The notes under the pieces: model-generated
What the model saw: only the letters and a program-made list of their open reading frames with translations
Databases searched by the model: none
Told to the model about the DNA's origin: nothing
Program-made: the position numbers and the translations under genes
Part shown: positions 9,289 to 64,000 of the stretch, one piece after another
How positions within the stretch are numbered: the first letter of the stretch is position 1
How the letters are laid out: every line of letters starts with the position of its first letter
DNA from: Leisingera caerulea DSM 24564
GTDB lineage: Bacteria > Pseudomonadota > Alphaproteobacteria > Rhodobacterales > Rhodobacteraceae
NCBI RefSeq assembly: GCF_000473325.1
Contig: NZ_KI421514.1
Location: forward strand, 371,500-435,499
Direction: 5' to 3'
DNA length: 64,000 nucleotides

Positions 9289-9723
9289 TCAGGACCCTGC
9301 GCCGGAGCAGTCCAGGCCTGTGGAAATGGCAATGGTGCCGCGGCTGCTCGCCACCTCGCGGATATCACCCTCCAGGCGGCAGCCCGACGCCCCGGTCACC
9401 AGGCCGCGGAAATCCGCTTCGGCGATGTCCGGCAGGCTGGGCACCGCACTGTCCTCAGGCACGCTCAGCACTGCCATTCCTGCGCTGCCGGACCGGACCA
9501 GGCACAAGGCAAGTTCCCGTCCCTGGAACTCCACGATCCTGTCTATCACAGCGTGGTCCCGGCCTGCGGGCTCCGCCGCCGGAACCGGGGCTGAAGGCGC
9601 GGAATGCAGGTGAACCGCCGTCACCGCTGGCGGCAGCGGGACTGCCGCCGCTGTTGTATCAAAGGAACTTGAAACCGGTGCCGAGGCCGCTGTCAGCGCC
9701 GCGGCGATCGCAAATGTCTTCAC
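9289..9723 (-). CDS. Hypothetical exported protein
   Basis: A 144-residue protein with a weak signal peptide (MKTFAIAAALTAASAPVSSS), then a low-complexity Ala/Pro stretch to about residue 55, and a compact C-terminal half with two cysteines (ASGCRLEG and GLDCSG) that could form a disulfide in the periplasm. I do not recognise the family. Coding bias fits its neighbours. Confidence 0.6.
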   Translation of the reverse strand: MKTFAIAAALTAASAPVSSSFDTTAAAVPLPPAVTAVHLHSAPSAPVPAAEPAGRDHAVIDRIVEFQGRELALCLVRSGSAGMAVLSVPEDSAVPSLPDIAEADFRGLVTGASGCRLEGDIREVASSRGTIAISTGLDCSGAGS

Positions 9724-9881
9724 AGCTCATCCACCCGTTTGCTCATTAACCCACAAGTGTCAGCCTAGAGCAGAATTGCGGCAGGAAGATGCCGCGGCGG
9801 CAGGAAGACGCGGACAATCAAAACAGCTTTTACCGGGAATTAAAGGCATTCATTTTCATGCCGCCTGGGCAGCTGCAAAAG

Positions 9882-9911
9882 AAAACGGGCCGCGCCTGGC
9901 GCGACCCGTTT
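9882..9911 (-). terminator. Intrinsic terminator after rpmG
   Basis: On the minus strand a stem AACGGG(T)CGCGC / GCGCG(G)CCCGTT is followed by TTCTTTT. It sits 26 bases after the rpmG stop. Confidence 0.75.
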
Positions 9912-9936
9912 CCGGAAATCATCCCGAAGGAAAGGC

Positions 9937-10104
9937 TTACTTGATTTTGCCTTCCTTGTACTCGACGTGCTTGCGCACAACCGGGTCGTACTTCCGCACA
10001 ACCATTTTCTCGGTCATGGTGCGTGCGTTCTTCTTGGTGACATAGAAGTGGCCGGTGCCCGCGCTCGAGTTCAGGCGGATTTTGATGGTGGTCGGCTTCG
10101 CCAT
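9937..10104 (-). CDS. rpmG: 50S ribosomal protein L33
   Basis: 55 residues, the usual L33 length. It has the family pattern [22 protein letters not shown] and ends [18 protein letters not shown]. This is the cysteine-free form that does not bind zinc. AGGAGAAGCACC precedes the ATG at 10104. Its own terminator follows, so it is monocistronic. Confidence 0.97.
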
Positions 10105-10221
10105 GGTGCTTCTCCTGCGTCCGAAAAGGCAGGGGCCTCTCGGTAAATTCCTATATGAAGCCCGGCTTTTACCCGGCTCAGCCCCCAAGTCAATAGGATT
10201 CGCCCCCATTCCCCAAGGGAT

Positions 10222-10665
10222 TTATGCGCAGAAGGCCTGTAAGCCGGATCCTGTCCCCCCGGGACCGTAATCCCGGGTTCGACGGCCATTCATCTAGGCG
10301 GCGCATTGCTGCGCCGCTCAAGCTGCCAACCCGGCCCCTCTCGGCTGAAGCGAACCTAGCGGCGGTTTCCCGGTTGCCCGGGACCTGCCCGCGCGGGGGC
10401 CCTATTTGGCATTGCTCCCGGTGGGGCTTGCCGTGCCGCCGCTGTTGCCAGCAGCGCGGTGGGCTCTTACCCCACCGTTTCACCCTTACCCGCGCGGATG
10501 CTCCTTTGGCGGACCTCCGGTCCGGCGGGCGGTCTGTTTTCTGTGGCGCTTTCCGTCGGGTTTCCCCGCCCGGGCGTTACCCGGCACCGTTGCTTCATGG
10601 AGTCCGGACTTTCCTCGAGGGAGGCTTGCGCGCCCCGCGCGGCCGTCCAGCCTTCTGCGCGACTG
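10222..10665 (-). ncRNA. rnpB: RNase P RNA (type A, alphaproteobacterial)
   Basis: Read on the minus strand, the 5' arm GCGCAGAAGG (10660-10651) pairs with the 3' arm CCTTCTGCGC (10235-10226) to form helix P1. The conserved core is present: GAGGAAAGTCCGGACTCC near the 5' end, GGGTAAGGGTGAAACGGTGGGGTAAGAGCCC in two parts in the middle, and GATGAATGGCCGTC with ACAGGATCCGGCTTACAG near the 3' end. Ends are set by P1 and may be off by a few bases. It cleaves the 5' leader of tRNA precursors. Confidence 0.96.
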
Positions 10666-59164: not shown

Positions 59165-59198
59165 AAAAAAACCCCCGATCGGCCAAGCGAAAGGGGGT
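59165..59198 (-). terminator. Leader terminator between the SAM-II aptamer and metZ
   Basis: On the minus strand ACCCCC pairs with GGGGGT (59198-59171, 16-nt loop that itself has GGCC pairing) and is followed by a T7 run. It lies after the aptamer and before the metZ ribosome site. Confidence 0.85.
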
Positions 59199-59211
59199 CC
59201 TTCACGTCCTG

Positions 59212-59268
59212 ACCTCTTTAGCGGGATTGTTTAACGTGGCCCGCAATCCGGTAACAAATCGCCCACGC
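59212..59268 (-). ncRNA. SAM-II riboswitch (metA RNA motif)
   Basis: On the minus strand P1 arms CGTGG and CCACG (59267-59263 and 59239-59235) enclose the loop with TTACCGGATTGCGGG. The downstream CAATCC pairs with GGATTG of that loop (pseudoknot P2), and the conserved CGCTAAAGAGG end follows. This is the SAM-II layout, known upstream of metA, metX and metZ in alphaproteobacteria. Binding of S-adenosylmethionine should repress metZ. Confidence 0.9.
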
Positions 59269-59444
59269 TTGAGGCAAGAAACCTCAATAATTCAGAAGCT
59301 TGGGCGGCAAACCTTTGATTTTACTTGACCGCCTTCGCCAGTTTTCGCCCGTTATTTTCTTGCTTTTCTGATCATTTGCCAACCATGTTATGCCCCGAAG
59401 GCATACCGCAACACTCAGGGCATACCAAGGATCGAAGGGGCAAT

Positions 59445-60545
59445 ATGGGTACGATCGCAGAACGCAAGCTTTCAGACGGACGCACCGCCTATAAGGCCCA
59501 AATCATTATCAAACGCAAGGGCGAACCAACGCACAGAGAATCCCGCCAATTCCCCAGGCGCTCAACCGCCAAAGCTTGGATGGAGCGGCGTGAGAAAGAG
59601 CTTCGCGCCCCGGGCGGACTCGAAAAGGCCCGCGGGAAACGCAAGACACTCGCCGACGCGATCAACCAATACATCGACGATCACAAGAAGACCTACGGCC
59701 GGTCAAAGGCACAGGTGCTGAACCGGCTTAAGGAAATGCCGATAGCGGAAAAGCCCTGCGACGAAATCACCAGCCAGCACATTGTCGACCTGGCCCGCGA
59801 AATCGGGGAAGGCCGAGCCAGTTCCACAGTCGGCAATTACCTGTCACACCTCGCCCCCGTCTTTAGAATGGCACGTCCCGCCTGGCAGATCGACCTCGAC
59901 CCGGCTGCCATCAATGATGCCCTGATCGTGTGTAAGCGGCTGGGCCTGATTTCCAAGTCAAACAGGCGCGACCGCCGGCCGACTATGGACGAGCTCGAAA
60001 AGCTCATGACGCACTACCAAGACAGCGCCGCGCGCGGGCACATGCCTATGAACAAGATCATCCCTTTCGCGATTTTCTCGACCAGGCGGCAAGACGAAAT
60101 CGTCCGGATAAAATGGCAGGATCTCGACCAGGAGCATAGTCGTGTGCTGGTCAGGGATATGAAGAACCCCGGCGAGAAAATCGGGAATGATGTTTGGTGC
60201 GAGCTGCCACCAGAGGCAGTGCGCATCATCGAGACAATGCCCGACACCGGCCCGGAAGAACCCATCTTCCGGCACCGCGCGAACAACATTTCGGCGTCAT
60301 TCATCAGAACATGCGCCCTGCTGGGGATAGATGATCTGCGGTTTCACGATCTACGGCATGAGGGCGTGAGCCGCCTGTTCGAAATGGGAAAGACCATCCC
60401 TCAGGTAGCCAGCGTATCTGGCCACCGGAGCTGGCAGAGCCTGCAGAGGTACAGCCATATCCGCGCCACCGGTGACCGGTTCGAAGGCTGGCCATGGCTC
60501 GCCCGTATCGCACCAGCCAAGGAAGCGGACGCAGATGAAGGCTAA
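59445..60545 (+). CDS. Tyrosine recombinase / phage-type integrase
   Basis: A 366-residue integrase. N-terminal arm and core-binding domains lie in residues about 1-180. The catalytic domain has Arg in STRRQDEIVRIKW (about 222-234), HDLRHEGVSRLFEMG with His-x2-Arg (about 305-319), SGHRSWQSLQRYSHI with His and the nucleophile Tyr (about 330-345). The ATG at 59445 follows GAAGGGG; an in-frame ATG at 59385 is possible. It should integrate and excise the element. Confidence 0.93.
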   Translation: MGTIAERKLSDGRTAYKAQIIIKRKGEPTHRESRQFPRRSTAKAWMERREKELRAPGGLEKARGKRKTLADAINQYIDDHKKTYGRSKAQVLNRLKEMPIAEKPCDEITSQHIVDLAREIGEGRASSTVGNYLSHLAPVFRMARPAWQIDLDPAAINDALIVCKRLGLISKSNRRDRRPTMDELEKLMTHYQDSAARGHMPMNKIIPFAIFSTRRQDEIVRIKWQDLDQEHSRVLVRDMKNPGEKIGNDVWCELPPEAVRIIETMPDTGPEEPIFRHRANNISASFIRTCALLGIDDLRFHDLRHEGVSRLFEMGKTIPQVASVSGHRSWQSLQRYSHIRATGDRFEGWPWLARIAPAKEADADEG

Positions 60546-60780
60546 AGACTACCCGCTGCCAATGGTCGAAATTTCCTGCGATTACTGCTGCAGGTACAGA
60601 AAGTACCGAAAGAGCAGGTTCACCGACCTAGTAGGAGGCGACACAGAGCTGCCGCAAGCGCTTTCAGTTATTGCCGCAGACTGTCCTGAGGATCGCGTCT
60701 CGCCAGATAACATGCGGGAGCGTTGCCGCCCCTTCTACGCGCAGAACTGGTGGGGCGCAGCCGATAAGGCAACCAAATAA
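60535..60780 (+). CDS. Small Cys-containing protein overlapping the integrase end
   Basis: An 81-residue protein beginning at the ATG at 60535, overlapping the integrase stop by 11 bases. Cysteines in EISCDYCCRYRKYRKSRF and AADCPEDRVSPDNMRERC give a C-x2-C...C...C pattern suitable for a zinc knuckle. Similar small genes follow integrases in alphaproteobacterial prophages. Function unknown; perhaps an excision factor or DNA-binding accessory. Confidence 0.68.
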   Translation: MKAKDYPLPMVEISCDYCCRYRKYRKSRFTDLVGGDTELPQALSVIAADCPEDRVSPDNMRERCRPFYAQNWWGAADKATK

Positions 60781-60840
60781 GCCCAACCGATCACTGGGCT
60801 GCAGAAGCTCCCAGCCCCCCCCCAGCTCGAACGGCGCTTC

Positions 60841-60878
60841 CCGGGCGGAAGCCCGGTACGCAAGCTACAAACTTGCGT
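60841..60878. other. Two tandem hairpins upstream of hicA
   Basis: CCGGGC-GGAA-GCCCGG (60841-60856) and ACGCAAG/CTTGCGT (60858-60878) adjoin. They could terminate the integrase transcript. The architecture recalls the two-hairpin repeats further right, without sequence similarity. Confidence 0.45.
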
Positions 60879-60906
60879 GGTTTGGACAAAATATTACACA
60901 CTTCTG

Positions 60907-60936
60907 TTTACTTGATTACACACTTATGTGTAATAT
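60907..60936 (+). promoter_or_regulatory. hicAB promoter with palindromic operator
   Basis: TTACTT (60908) and TAATAT (60931) are 17 bases apart. A perfect palindrome ATTACACA-ctta-TGTGTAAT at 60915-60934 covers the spacer and the -10 box. A further ATTACACACTT half-site lies at 60893. HicB or the HicAB complex would be expected to bind here. The predicted transcription start falls on the hicA ATG. Confidence 0.75.
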
Positions 60937-60942
60937 ATACCT

Positions 60943-61131
60943 ATGAACAGCAAAGAACTGGAGAAGCTACTCAAGCGCCACGGATGCACCTTCGAAACGC
61001 ATAAGGGCGGAAGTGGACACAAGACGGTAAAGCTAGGCGACAAAACTTCACAGTTGCCCATGCACGGCTCAAGAAAAGAACTCGGAACCGGCCTTGTTAA
61101 CAAGATACTCAAAGACCTCGGCCTTAAATAG
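60943..61131 (+). CDS. hicA: HicA-family toxin
   Basis: 62 residues: MNSKELEKLLKRHGCTFETHKGGSGHKTVKLG in pieces, with the HicA catalytic His in GSGHKTV and the LPMHGSRKELGTGLVNKILKDLGL end. A double-stranded RNA-binding-like fold that cleaves mRNA. No ribosome site precedes the ATG, so translation may be leaderless. hicB follows 28 bases later. Confidence 0.94.
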   Translation: MNSKELEKLLKRHGCTFETHKGGSGHKTVKLGDKTSQLPMHGSRKELGTGLVNKILKDLGLK

Positions 61132-61159
61132 GCCGGGGTTACCAGCCACGGAGGGCTAC

Positions 61160-61570
61160 ATGTTTTACCCGATTGATCTGACCCCAGACGACAACGACAC
61201 CTTTCTGGTGACCTGCCCCGATTTGCCAGAGGTTACATCCTTCGGGGCCAGCGAGGAGGAAGCCATAGCGAATGGCCGGAATGCGATTCTGGAAGCCATT
61301 GCTGCCCGGATGGACGCGTTTCAGGAAATTCCCCCACCCTCCGCCGGCGGCGGCGCCTCTATCCCTCTGACCCTCAGTATCAAGCTGCAGCTCTATTGGG
61401 CGCTCAACGCGGCAGGAATGACACGCGCAGACCTTCAACGGGCAACTGGTTGGTCGCGCACAAAGGTTGACCGGCTGTTTGATCCGAACCACGAAAGCAA
61501 ACTGACCCAGGTCGAGGAAGCTTTCGAAGCTCTAGGAATGCACGTCGAGATTACTGCAGAGGCCGCCTGA
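61160..61570 (+). CDS. hicB: HicB-family antitoxin
   Basis: 136 residues. The partial RNase H fold (YPIDLTPDDNDTFLVTCPDLPEVTSFGASEEEAIANGRNAI in pieces) is followed by a helix-turn-helix (LYWALNAAGMTRADLQRATGWSRTKVDRLFD). It neutralises HicA and should bind the palindromes upstream. GAGGGCTAC precedes the ATG at 61160. Confidence 0.94.
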   Translation: MFYPIDLTPDDNDTFLVTCPDLPEVTSFGASEEEAIANGRNAILEAIAARMDAFQEIPPPSAGGGASIPLTLSIKLQLYWALNAAGMTRADLQRATGWSRTKVDRLFDPNHESKLTQVEEAFEALGMHVEITAEAA

Positions 61571-61577
61571 AGCCAAA

Positions 61578-61600
61578 GGCCCCGGCGATTTGCCGGGGCC
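61578..61600 (+). terminator. Terminator after hicB
   Basis: GGCCCCGGC/GCCGGGGCC, 9-bp perfect stem with a 5-nt loop, seven bases after the hicB stop. Confidence 0.75.
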
Positions 61601-61643
61601 CTGCTCTCCTTATCTGGAGTTTCTCCAGTTCAGCCCTACTCTT

Positions 61644-61723
61644 CCACTATCCCAACTAACCGGGGTGGGATAGAGCGGCCCGCAACACCGTCTACGGCGG
61701 TAAATTTGCCCGGCGGGTCGCTC
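61644..61723. repeat. Two-hairpin element, copy 1
   Basis: Hairpin A TATCCCA/TGGGATA (61648-61672) is followed directly by hairpin B GAGCGGCCCGC/GCGGGTCGCTC (61673-61683 and 61713-61723; one G-T pair on the plus strand). It is flanked by junction motifs on both sides and holds no convincing gene. Confidence 0.6.
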
Positions 61724-61754
61724 GCTTGGCTTCCGCTCTCCTTTTCTGGATCTG

Positions 61755-62015
61755 CTACTCGACCAGGTTCGCTGAATAAAAGCCATCGCCACTGTCAACT
61801 TGAACCGGCAAGCCAAATCCGGCGCGATCCAACACTGCAGAGCGCTGCCTACTTCCACGCCGAAGTGAAGCGCTTAAGATCTCTTGCGGTTTCAATGATA
61901 TGCAGGCCAAGCGCTGGAGAACTTGAAGAATTTCCCCTTCACTCAGGTTCCCAGGCATCTCCCCCACGCTCTTCTCTGAAGTTCCATCCCAGTGTCTTAT
62001 TTCCCATTTTGCCAT
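61755..62015 (-). CDS. Hypothetical small protein of the mobile array (86 aa)
   Basis: An 86-residue protein, not recognised. It starts MAKWEIRHWDGTSEKSVGEMPG and is basic in the middle (SLRRGSRQRSAVLDR). AAGGAG from a junction motif lies ten bases before the ATG. Coding is supported by position and ribosome site only. Confidence 0.5.
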   Translation of the reverse strand: MAKWEIRHWDGTSEKSVGEMPGNLSEGEILQVLQRLACISLKPQEILSASLRRGSRQRSAVLDRAGFGLPVQVDSGDGFYSANLVE

Positions 62016-62059
62016 GAGCCGCTGCTCCTTAACTGGACAATTTTAGGTGTAGCCCTAGC

Positions 62060-62139
62060 TCCCCTACCATCCCGCAACTTACCGAGGGGTGGGGCAGAGC
62101 GGCCTGCACAACCTGATATAGTTCTTTCGCAGGCCGCTC
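62060..62139. repeat. Two-hairpin element, copy 2
   Basis: Hairpin A CCCC-t-ACC / GGT-GGGG (62061-62094) and hairpin B GAGCGGCCTGC/GCAGGCCGCTC (62097-62107 and 62129-62139), perfect. Against copy 1 one C-G pair is replaced by T-A. It lies 14 bases after the stop of the 66-residue gene. Confidence 0.65.
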
Positions 62140-62153
62140 GACGATCTGGTCAG

Positions 62154-62354
62154 CTAGCTCTGAACCCAGTCTTGCACCTTGTAGTCATAGCGCCACTCCT
62201 GAGTGGGGGTAGGCAAGGTGGCACCGTGGCCGATAGCAACAATGCGGCACGAAGACTTCTTGCAAATCTCCTCATCGGCATATGCCATAGCCTCGGCAAG
62301 CGTTTTGCAACCTTTCGCAACAAGAGCGCCCTCAACAAACAATTGGTAAATCAA
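62154..62354 (-). CDS. Hypothetical small protein of the mobile array (66 aa)
   Basis: A 66-residue protein starting at a TTG (62354) with AAGGAGG seven bases upstream: MIYQLFVEGALVAKGCKTLAEAMAYADEE in pieces. Two cysteines, mixed alpha/beta. Family not recognised. Confidence 0.55.
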   Translation of the reverse strand: MIYQLFVEGALVAKGCKTLAEAMAYADEEICKKSSCRIVAIGHGATLPTPTQEWRYDYKVQDWVQS

Positions 62355-62366
62355 CGGCTTCCCTCC

Positions 62367-62540
62367 TTAGCTTGATTCACTCTTTAGATGGTGCACAGTC
62401 AGATGCGCTGCGCAATTTGGGCATTCGAACACTTCACCCTCGGCCGGCACATCGCTCAGCTCGAAATCCATATCTATAGAACACACAGGGCACTCGAATT
62501 CCGCCCAAGCCTCACTGGCGTTGCTGAAAAAATGGAACAC
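62367..62540 (-). CDS. Small zinc-ribbon protein (57 aa, GTG start)
   Basis: 57 residues with two Cys pairs: FECPVCSIDMDFE and FECPNCAAHLTVHH, a classic zinc ribbon. It ends ESS-stop followed at once by GGAGG for the next gene. The GTG at 62540 is preceded by a G9 run that must serve as ribosome site; length errors in this run would matter. Confidence 0.58.
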   Translation of the reverse strand: MFHFFSNASEAWAEFECPVCSIDMDFELSDVPAEGEVFECPNCAAHLTVHHLKSESS

Positions 62541-62609
62541 TCCCCCCCCCTTTACTGAACCTCGGCCAGCCCAAGTTGATCAACATTCAGCCAGCGCTAC
62601 CTACAGTAA

Positions 62610-62694
62610 GCCTCATGGCGACATGGGGCTGCAACCCGCGAGTTAACCAATTGGGGGATTGATTGGTCCTGCGGGTTGCACACTCCTTTTTTTT
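62610..62694. repeat. Two-hairpin element, copy 4 (most diverged)
   Basis: Hairpin A GCCTCATG-GCGA-CATGGGGC (62610-62629, 8 bp with one T-G pair and a GNRA tetraloop) and hairpin B TGCAACCCGC/GCGGGTTGCA (62630-62639 and 62671-62680), with an inner ACCAAT/ATTGGT. T8 follows at 62687 on the plus strand, terminator-like. Confidence 0.6.
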
Positions 62695-62715
62695 GGACGG
62701 CTGGAGCACCCAGCA

Positions 62716-62931
62716 CTAGAAATCCGTTGTGAGGACCCGCAGGCGCCCGTCACTACCAAACATCCCAGCGTCGTATTTTTCCTCAGCCTTTGACTGCACA
62801 GCGTGTAGCCCGTGGTCCTCGATAGCTTCGCTGGAGGTCACAACGACTACGCGCTTGTCTCCATCAAATGCTTCAAGAAGCATCTCAAACCCCTGAGAGC
62901 TTCCCTGCTCACCCGAAAAAGTAAGCGGCAT
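62716..62931 (-). CDS. Small protein, DUF1488-like (71 aa)
   Basis: 71 residues: MPLTFSGEQGSSQGFEMLLEAFDGDKRVVVVTSSEAIEDHG in pieces. The xGxxRVxVxxSxEAxEDH arrangement resembles DUF1488 proteins, which occur in alphaproteobacteria and rhizobial plasmids. AGGAGAATGGTATT precedes the ATG. Role unknown. Confidence 0.62.
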   Translation of the reverse strand: MPLTFSGEQGSSQGFEMLLEAFDGDKRVVVVTSSEAIEDHGLHAVQSKAEEKYDAGMFGSDGRLRVLTTDF

Positions 62932-63007
62932 AATACCATTCTCCTATTTCAGACAGCCCCATCTTGAGCGGTCGTTTCGAAAATTCCCCGTGAAAGGCGA
63001 GAAATCG

Positions 63008-63089
63008 CCCTACCATCAACTTGCCCCTAGCCGACAGGGGCAGCGGCCCGCGCGTAACTAGTGCGTGTTTTACCACCTTCGCGGGCCGC
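63008..63089. repeat. Two-hairpin element, copy 3
   Basis: Hairpin A TGCCCCT/AGGGGCA (63022-63042, loop AGCCGAC) and hairpin B GCGGCCCGCG/CGCGGGCCGC (63043-63052 and 63080-63089). It starts with CCCTACCATC as copy 2 does. An open frame of 60 codons crosses it, see rejected items. Confidence 0.65.
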
Positions 63090-63093
63090 ACTC

Positions 63094-63273
63094 CTATTTG
63101 GAATTCACCAACTTTGGGCCCTGGCGAAGTTCCGCCGCGGCCGCATCAGCGCGCGCGGCGGCATCCAGTGGGCAAAACGGAAAATCGTCTCCTCCAGCCT
63201 CAGCGACGCTCCGGAAAGCTACAGCCAGGCGTTCGCACACCACACGGAATTGCCGTCTGTCTCGAGCATCCAT
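63094..63273 (-). CDS. Hypothetical small protein of the mobile array (59 aa)
   Basis: 59 residues: MDARDRRQFRVVCERLAVAFRSVAEAGGDDFPF in pieces, then an Ala-rich helix ending LVNSK-stop from a junction motif. GGGAG lies eight bases before the ATG. Not recognised. Confidence 0.55.
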   Translation of the reverse strand: MDARDRRQFRVVCERLAVAFRSVAEAGGDDFPFCPLDAAARADAAAAELRQGPKLVNSK

Positions 63274-63292
63274 TGCCTGGCTCCCTTGCAGG

Positions 63293-63493
63293 CTATGCAG
63301 CCAGGGGCGGCAACGACCGCAAAGCCTTGGCCATATCGAGGTAGCCGTCATATCCGTATTCTGCATGCATCTGCTCATACCAAGTTGCCCAAGGCTCCCT
63401 GCGGCCCTCGTCAAACACGTCGAACCAAGACCCCTTTCGCACGCTCACCTGCCCGTCGGCCAGCCGCACAACTTCAATCCTGTTGGCACTCAT
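63293..63493 (-). CDS. Hypothetical small protein of the mobile array (66 aa)
   Basis: 66 residues: MSANRIEVVRLADGQVSVRKGSWFDVFDEGRREPWATWYEQMHAEYGYDGYLDMAKAL in pieces. Acidic and aromatic-rich, no known motif. AGGAG at good spacing before the ATG at 63493. Confidence 0.6.
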   Translation of the reverse strand: MSANRIEVVRLADGQVSVRKGSWFDVFDEGRREPWATWYEQMHAEYGYDGYLDMAKALRSLPPLAA

Positions 63494-63502
63494 ACCTCGC
63501 TC

Positions 63503-63739
63503 CTATTTGGACTCCTGTTTCGCCGCACGCTGCATTTCGGTCCAGCGATCGACGGCATCGTTAATGTGTTTGAATGGCGGCGTTTTCGTCCAGCAGTAAT
63601 TGCACACGATCCGAACCCCAGTTTTCGTCGGCTCCGGCGTTACTGGGCCGCCCTGATCACAGTGCTGGCAATTGGCAACACGGTCCATGCGCGCACCATG
63701 AGCGACGAACTGTTCGTTGATCAGATCCCGTGACGCCAT
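63503..63739 (-). CDS. Lar-like small zinc protein (78 aa)
   Basis: 78 residues. VANCQHCDQGGPVTPEPTKTGVRIVCNYCWTKTPPF in pieces shows CxxC...CxxC, then HINDAVDRWTEM, the pattern of Lar-type restriction-alleviation zinc proteins in phages. AAGGAG precedes the ATG at 63739. It ends QESK-stop at a junction motif. Lar identity is by pattern only. Confidence 0.62.
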   Translation of the reverse strand: MASRDLINEQFVAHGARMDRVANCQHCDQGGPVTPEPTKTGVRIVCNYCWTKTPPFKHINDAVDRWTEMQRAAKQESK

Positions 63740-63752
63740 ATCGCCTTGCTCC

Positions 63753-63899
63753 TTACTTGGACTGACTGAACACCGCCTCAAGCTGGCGGCGCGTGTATTC
63801 ATCTTTCGCTTCAACCTCAGCCTTTAGCTTCGCGAGCATCGCCAGAAACCCGGCACTTGGCACATACCGCGCCCGCGGCGCCACGTCAGGACAGGACAT
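63753..63899 (-). CDS. Hypothetical small protein of the mobile array (48 aa)
   Basis: 48 residues: starts MSCPDVAPRARYVPSAGF, then a charged helix (KLKAEVEAKDEYTRRQLEAVF) ending SQSK-stop at a junction motif. Its start overlaps the previous gene by 14 bases, so translation is coupled. Confidence 0.55.
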   Translation of the reverse strand: MSCPDVAPRARYVPSAGFLAMLAKLKAEVEAKDEYTRRQLEAVFSQSK

Positions 63900-64000
63900 G
63901 GGGCGGAACCCAAACGCGCTGCGGACCGAAACCTACGGTGAGGAATTCGGCCTCTGGCCACTCTGACACTTCGGGGTTGCCGCCTTCAGTGTATCGGGTG
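63886..64000 (-). CDS. C-terminal end of a gene entering from the right edge
   Basis: The 37 visible residues, ending VGFGPQRVWVPPHVLS, stay open to the edge and stop inside the start of the 48-residue gene (14-base overlap). Only the end is visible; no family can be named. Confidence 0.5.
   Translation of the reverse strand, partial: TRYTEGGNPEVSEWPEAEFLTVGFGPQRVWVPPHVLS

Follow-up and report, generated by a model that had tools for sequence, protein, structure and literature searches.

The right-hand part of a 64,000-nucleotide stretch of the Leisingera caerulea DSM 24564 genome (the window) carries four short elements, each consisting of two adjacent hairpins, among the small genes of a prophage, and the locus raises the question of what such elements could be. 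An initial annotation, made from the sequence, offered processing sites, small RNAs and recombination sites. The following analysis addresses the reality of the four copies, the distribution of their relatives, the conservation of the fold and the possible functions.

Four two-hairpin elements in a prophage array

The right end of the window is a prophage edge, where an integrase gene and hicAB are followed by an array of small genes read leftwards; the contig extends 12 kb beyond the window, reaching endolysin and tail genes. Elements c2-c4 are situated between array genes and c1 after the last one, and they are best read on the strand opposite to the genes. The features of the region are:

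59325..60545, plus strand: gene for a phage-type tyrosine integrase (PF00589), the prophage edge
60943-61131 and 61157-61570, plus strand: hicA and hicB, a toxin-antitoxin pair (PF07927, PF15919) ending just below c1
61633..61723, plus strand: c1 (copy 1), lead-in GCCCTA
61647-61673, plus strand: c1 hairpin A, CTATCCCA, 8 bp
61673-61723, plus strand: c1 hairpin B, GAGCGGCCCGC, 11 bp including one plus-strand G-U
61755..62015, minus strand: 86-aa array gene without Pfam or PHROG match, its start about 37 nt from c2, running away from it
62052..62139, plus strand: c2 (copy 2), hairpin A at 62067-62092 in an ambiguous register
62097-62139, plus strand: c2 hairpin B, GAGCGGCCTGC, 11 bp
62154..62354, minus strand: 66-aa array gene without Pfam or PHROG match
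62367..62540, minus strand: 57-aa zinc-ribbon array gene (PF25206 and PF23548 above cut-offs), starting about 54 nt from c3 and directed away from it
62594..62680, plus strand: c3 (copy 3), hairpin A at 62609-62630
62630-62680, plus strand: c3 hairpin B, TGCAACCCGCG, 11 bp
62716..62931, minus strand: 71-aa array gene without Pfam or PHROG match, its start about 76 nt from the c4 lead-in, running away from it
62963..62995, plus strand: promoter-like bipartite block of c4, CTTGAG, 17 nt, then CCCCGTGAAA
63007..63089, plus strand: c4 (copy 4), lead-in GCCCTACCATC, hairpin A at 63021-63043, hairpin B at 63043-63089

The claim that four copies share one plus-strand layout was borne out by a hairpin descriptor (hairpin A of at least 6 bp; hairpin B of at least 10 bp within 5 nt, with a loop of 15-35 nt; few G-U pairs allowed), which finds exactly the four loci c1-c4 on the plus strand of 61571-63150. 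Dinucleotide shuffles of the region (300) yielded on average 0.007 double hairpins and at most one, none reaching two, and the best window tile outside the region had two (80 tiles in all). Hairpin A, described for every copy, is clean in c1, c3 and c4, and in c2 it needs a bulge or another register. The list of hairpin arms departed from the order of coordinates: TGCAACCCGC and GCCTCATG are arms of the copy at 62610, and GCGGCCCGCG and TGCCCCT come from the one at 63008; likewise, the lead-in CCCTACCATC, assigned to copies 2 and 3, is actually that of the copies at 62060 and 63008. Folding z-scores for c1-c4 were -1.79, -2.00, -4.69 and -4.52 on the plus strand and -0.29, -2.20, -3.79 and -3.03 on the minus strand; by these values c1 and c2, taken singly, are unremarkable in energy.

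Neither of two array proteins had relatives among viral contigs, and positions 61600-64000 gave no DNA match in phage records. In genome G134, which holds a relative of the 71-aa array gene (L004), no element was found in the 3.2 kb of sequence searched. Several other properties of the array were observed. A common junction box, which includes a stop codon and a ribosome-binding site, recurs among its genes (minus strand of window 61603-63511; L002:8160-9650). It is TCCAARTARGGAG-like leftwards and TCCAGAAACCGCCGGAGG-like rightwards, and judging from these letters it looks as if the genes had been exchanged as cassettes. One gene pair is duplicated (L002:8439-8998 and 9657-10216). Just past the window end (contig C8) there are 100 N at L002:5001-5100, and DNA starting at L002:4503 occurs again from L002:5235, with an identical 103-aa frame; the N run and the repeat are probably an assembly artefact in a repeat-rich array.

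Relatives across the genus Leisingera

As the initial annotation had proposed, a model (R1) was built from the four window copies, with loops trimmed, and the search was widened. In the own genome R1 gave one extra weak match (C7:215298-215368, 27.0 bits, E 0.18), and this fifth match led to a family present in all 21 genomes of the genus. Another R1 match in the own genome (L026, E 0.33) sits in a presumed coding gene and was taken for chance. Two further models were made, R2 from 21 first-locus copies (described below) and R3 from 14 copies of three types. With R3 the family was found in 21/21 genus genomes and 0/20 others, at 1-5 copies per genome.

The window copies differ in their ties to this family. 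Element c4 is the nearest of the four to the family consensus (R3 E-value 7.7e-26, c4 being itself part of R3), and an 11-nt stretch of its loop, GCGTAACTAGT, is identical, in the same register, to that of the chromosomal copy G000:C7:215298. Element c3 is matched by R3 at 1.1e-8 and has a relative in genome G395 (L167). For c2 the R3 E-value is 0.19, and a near-identical copy lies in genome G394 (L109). R3 missed c1 with the E-value limit set at 3, and R1, although c1 was among the copies used to build it, scores c1 at just E 0.17 in the own genome. Because of these weak or absent scores, the tie of c1 and c2 to the family comes down to their layout, their stem letters and their lead-in. Both lack the family loop motif, and c1-c3 as read lack the CCCC block discussed below; c1 and c2 may be in decay, or may have been reshaped to suit different partners.

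A stem-and-loop pattern search allowing up to 3 mismatches recovered the chromosomal form GCAACCCG(T/C)G(T/C)GTA(A/G)CTAGT at 0-1 mismatches in 21/21 genus genomes, and forms with GCGGCCCG in G000 (c4), G400, G404, G399 and G406. The reversed pattern, used as a control, also matched every genome when up to 3 mismatches were tolerated, and therefore matches at 0-1 mismatches alone were counted. In a collection of 84,980 species the exact pattern occurred at 16 loci. The record titles give Leisingera for 13 of them, Rhodobacteraceae bacterium for two and Nocardioides marinus for one (L123, DP1N28-1); the last record is probably mislabelled, since its element is identical to that of the genus genome G238 over the stretch read.

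Two fixed chromosomal loci account for many of the copies. In the own genome Pfam identifies the genes on either side of the first locus as Peptidase_M23 and OmpA-family; by a simple motif test an OmpA-like end adjoins it in 21/21 genomes and a peptidase-like motif in 19/21, and in G400 a ClpB_D2-small end lies upstream. R2 found the second type in the own genome at C8:237977 (E 3.7e-7), where a rhomboid gene lies on one side and a GFA gene on the other (Pfam on one copy). By our grouping this second locus is present in 12/21 genomes, with a rhomboid-like motif beside 12/12 copies and a GFA-like one beside 11/12. Further family copies occur in prophages and islands. By the same grouping, with the doubtful rows L170 and L174 set aside, 18/21 genomes have copies beyond the first-locus one and 8/21 have the mobile type; L114 was dropped, as were L162, L170 and L174 of 49 matches. 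The mobile setting first described holds for the four window copies. Other family members sit at chromosomal places, however, and the connection of c1 and c2 with the family is loose. A 20-nt insertion in the loop, repeating CTGTCTCC, was seen in G238.

Outside the genus, searches at E up to 0.01 with R1 (394 family genomes), R2 and R3 (295 each) returned genus members only, apart from G005 (R3, E 0.0016), judged to be chance after its sequence was read; this absence is soft, because strict filters scored just 12-13 candidates per genome. Prophage relatives traced by a tail protein were found in 11/295 genomes (own included) and at 23 viral loci. Stretches from 7 of the 10 other tail-protein genomes and from the second prophage of the own genome contained no convincing element (R1; R3 best E 0.1), and neither did the 23 viral loci (R1 best E 0.91; R3 best E 2.6). 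Two pattern scans of viral contigs were empty, and one returned a single contig (L131), whose element and the G399 element are identical over the part that was read. The G404 element had no DNA match in plasmid or phage records and the second-locus element none in plasmid records.

Covariation in the stems and conservation of the loop

The initial annotation had argued from compensatory stem changes to a selected RNA or DNA fold. RNAalifold, applied to sequence-only MAFFT alignments of 14 and of 30 copies, placed hairpin B at the same position, with 9 bp. The 30 copies were chosen (6/21 first-locus, 10/12 second-locus, 8 mobile, L166, L167, c1-c3 and L109, with L168 and L169 omitted). In this alignment 98.4% of cells were paired, compared with 44-52% when the structure was slid by 1-3 columns; there were 32 doubly changed cells versus 10.1 in shuffles, and the covariation score was 0.337 versus 0.220, neither value being reached in any of 500 shuffles. 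Two of the five pair-count measures fail to clearly exceed the shuffles: 5 pairs had changes on both sides, a figure reached by 38/500, and 13 pair types were present, a figure reached by 480/500. Hairpin B has double changes at four pairs; two of them switch between GC and AU, in 8 copies each, and the other two between CG and UA, one in 12 copies and one in a single copy.

Support for hairpin A is weaker, with 4 pairs, 95.7% of cells paired and one pair changed on both sides. RNAalifold gave four pairs in the 14 copies, the innermost broken in three, and recovered the hairpin only in part in the 30 copies, where c1 and c2 disturbed it. At the second locus, 10/12 copies have G-C, A-T, G-T or T-G as the outer pair of hairpin A, and this position is unpaired in L141 and L173. 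Covariation in homologues, the lack of which had been named as grounds for abandoning a selected fold, was therefore found, firmly for hairpin B and less so for hairpin A. Together, the genus-wide homologues (21/21), the RNAalifold hairpin B and its compensatory changes in excess of shuffles uphold the idea of a selected nucleic-acid fold.

Sequence is conserved as well. When 20 first-locus copies are compared, the 21 nt preceding hairpin B have an identity of 0.93, the first 20 nt of hairpin B 0.96 and the following 12 nt 0.83; the upstream block lies at 0.64-0.73 and the flanks at 0.30-0.45. Loop positions U55, A60 and U62 are invariant in 27/27 copies (without c1, c2 and G394c2), and several more are nearly so.

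Protein coding was rejected. Conservation that follows codons, the other ground named in advance against the fold, was not seen: no single frame was open in more than 13/45 copies and some open frame existed in 30/45, frames being counted from the element start, which shifts between types (45 of 49 matches were used; L162, L170, L174 and the partial L169 were out). The initial annotation had linked the layout to no named RNA family, and Rfam release 15 gave no match on the window elements and none at E up to 5 in 60500-64000; in nine loci of relatives, with matches accepted to E 1, there were four matches, none of them on the element. In the literature searched, no paper was recognised as describing it. 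Elsewhere in the window there are two ordinary structured RNAs on the minus strand, a SAM_alpha riboswitch (59197-59276) and RNase P RNA (10224-10658).

Candidate small RNA genes and alternative readings

We favour, with a probability of roughly 0.6, the reading that the elements are small structured RNA genes acting by loop pairing, and that the prophage copies join the regulation or compete with it. The layout, homology, covariation, fixed loci, strand bias and conserved upstream block are observed directly; the rest of the scheme is conjectural. Each element would be made as its own RNA of about 80-100 nt, from the plus strand, opposite to the array genes, with a CCCTACCAT-like lead-in, hairpin A and, immediately after it, hairpin B with a large unpaired loop. 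The loop, conserved in sequence as GYG(U)UAACYAGU(A)GCUUGU, would be the working part, pairing with targets in trans. Elements c1-c3 would be genes, or diverged variants or remnants, of that RNA, and the prophage copies, as relatives or decoys, could join the same regulation or compete with it.

The strand on which the hairpins act bears on a first alternative, that minus-strand hairpins are cis-acting elements of the array mRNA, such as sites for RNase III or other processing, or attenuators. All four are intergenic in the array, three of them beat shuffles in minus-strand folding, and phage gene arrays are a known setting of such sites, as in the RNase III sites of T7. We nevertheless regard this reading as improbable: the best conserved copies are chromosomal, outside phage arrays, the upstream block points along the plus strand, and helix B in the 30 copies has 257 Watson-Crick pairs, 12 G-U and one A-C when read on the plus strand, whereas the other strand would give 12 A-C and one G-U. 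This bias is supportive and not conclusive, because the 12 cells represent about six independent changes versus one.

The upstream block was considered further. In second-locus and mobile copies TGA stands 18 nt before CCCC(G/A)NAA-like letters in 19/21 (L113 and L095 depart; the count includes L170, later dropped as a weak match), and first-locus copies carry TTTGAT...TAGTTT-like letters instead of the CCCC block. From its letters we read the block as a candidate promoter, and it resembles the sigma-32 form of E. coli. The groES gene of the own genome, the sole gene tried for an RpoH reading, has no such block upstream; it is preceded by an inverted repeat that we take to be CIRCE. The Rhodobacter sphaeroides RpoHI/RpoHII promoter has, according to PMC10673084, TAT at -12; relative to this form, TGA is at the -35 place in 19/21 copies, and the difference lies in CCCCGYAAA, with CCCCGY where TAT would be expected. 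A CCCCGYAAA variant, GAAAATTTCCCGCAAAA, also precedes a PrkA gene (PF08298) in L178, at a distance of about 0.3 kb, and recurs with similar downstream DNA in L190, L191, L193 and L196.

Recombination or transposition sites acting as single-stranded DNA (attC-like, or hairpins of the REP/MITE kind) are a poorer candidate still. Integron attC sites resemble the element in that stem bases change while the hairpin is kept, in strand specificity and in proximity to small genes; the partly mobile setting would suit them, and folded single-stranded DNA would tolerate G-T as well. However, attC sites have RYYYAAC and GTTRRRY core sites, and this order was found in 0/30 copies (hairpin stretches only, about 70-86 nt). 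Moreover, the Leisingera element occupies two fixed chromosomal loci at the low copy number given above, and its sequence conservation is concentrated in the loop and the upstream block.

Intrinsic terminators with an unusually large loop, serving neighbour genes, are about as improbable. An intrinsic terminator has a GC-rich stem with a T run directly after it. Second-locus tails are T-rich (mean 4.2 T in the 9 nt after hairpin B, 12 copies; mobile 3.0, 8 copies) and an eight-T run begins 6 nt past c3, but first-locus tails are T-poor (0.7, 21 copies), which speaks against hairpin B being an ordinary terminator in those copies. A terminator would also require neither a conserved loop sequence nor the upstream block, and the mobile copies are directed against the array genes. 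Among the three functions originally offered, then, the evidence favours the small RNA, and processing and recombination sites less so.

The small RNA reading has partial parallels. StsR of R. sphaeroides, an alphaproteobacterial stress small RNA, is described (PMC8307010) as 72 nt long, with its own gene and under the alternative sigma factors RpoHI/RpoHII; the likeness, a short RNA from its own gene, is predicted for the Leisingera element, and R3, run with strict filters, gave no convincing match beyond the genus in its 295 family genomes. In E. coli the phage-encoded anti-sRNA AgvB (PMC4104026) acts against GcvB by mimicking an mRNA substrate. Its likeness to our case would be that of a prophage-borne small RNA bearing on a small RNA of the core genome, and the difference is that the Leisingera prophage copies resemble the putative host RNA itself, in the fold and, for c4, in the 11-nt loop stretch.

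It thus looks as if the phage brings along variants of a putative host small RNA. A more specific proposal, which we hold only tentatively and consider rather unlikely, is that the prophage copies are whole-fold mimics, c4 with the loop stretch and a stress-promoter-like block, that capture, saturate or re-aim the host RNA network, several diverged copies being used during lysogeny or induction. The candidate small RNA family has no name in Rfam. All Leisingera genomes searched have it at a fixed position, and prophages of these hosts contain homologous copies. It is experimentally tractable, and the conserved loop and upstream block lend themselves to direct mutational tests. If the reading is true, a phage that copies the host small RNA itself, and not the target, would make a clean model for asking how phages exploit host RNA regulation.

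A hairpin of another kind was noted in the sister prophage (G000:C7), where a perfect stem of 20 bp, or 22 bp if one G-T is counted, encloses a loop of 26 nt; this hairpin, at L062:6564-6633, fills a gene slot of the array.
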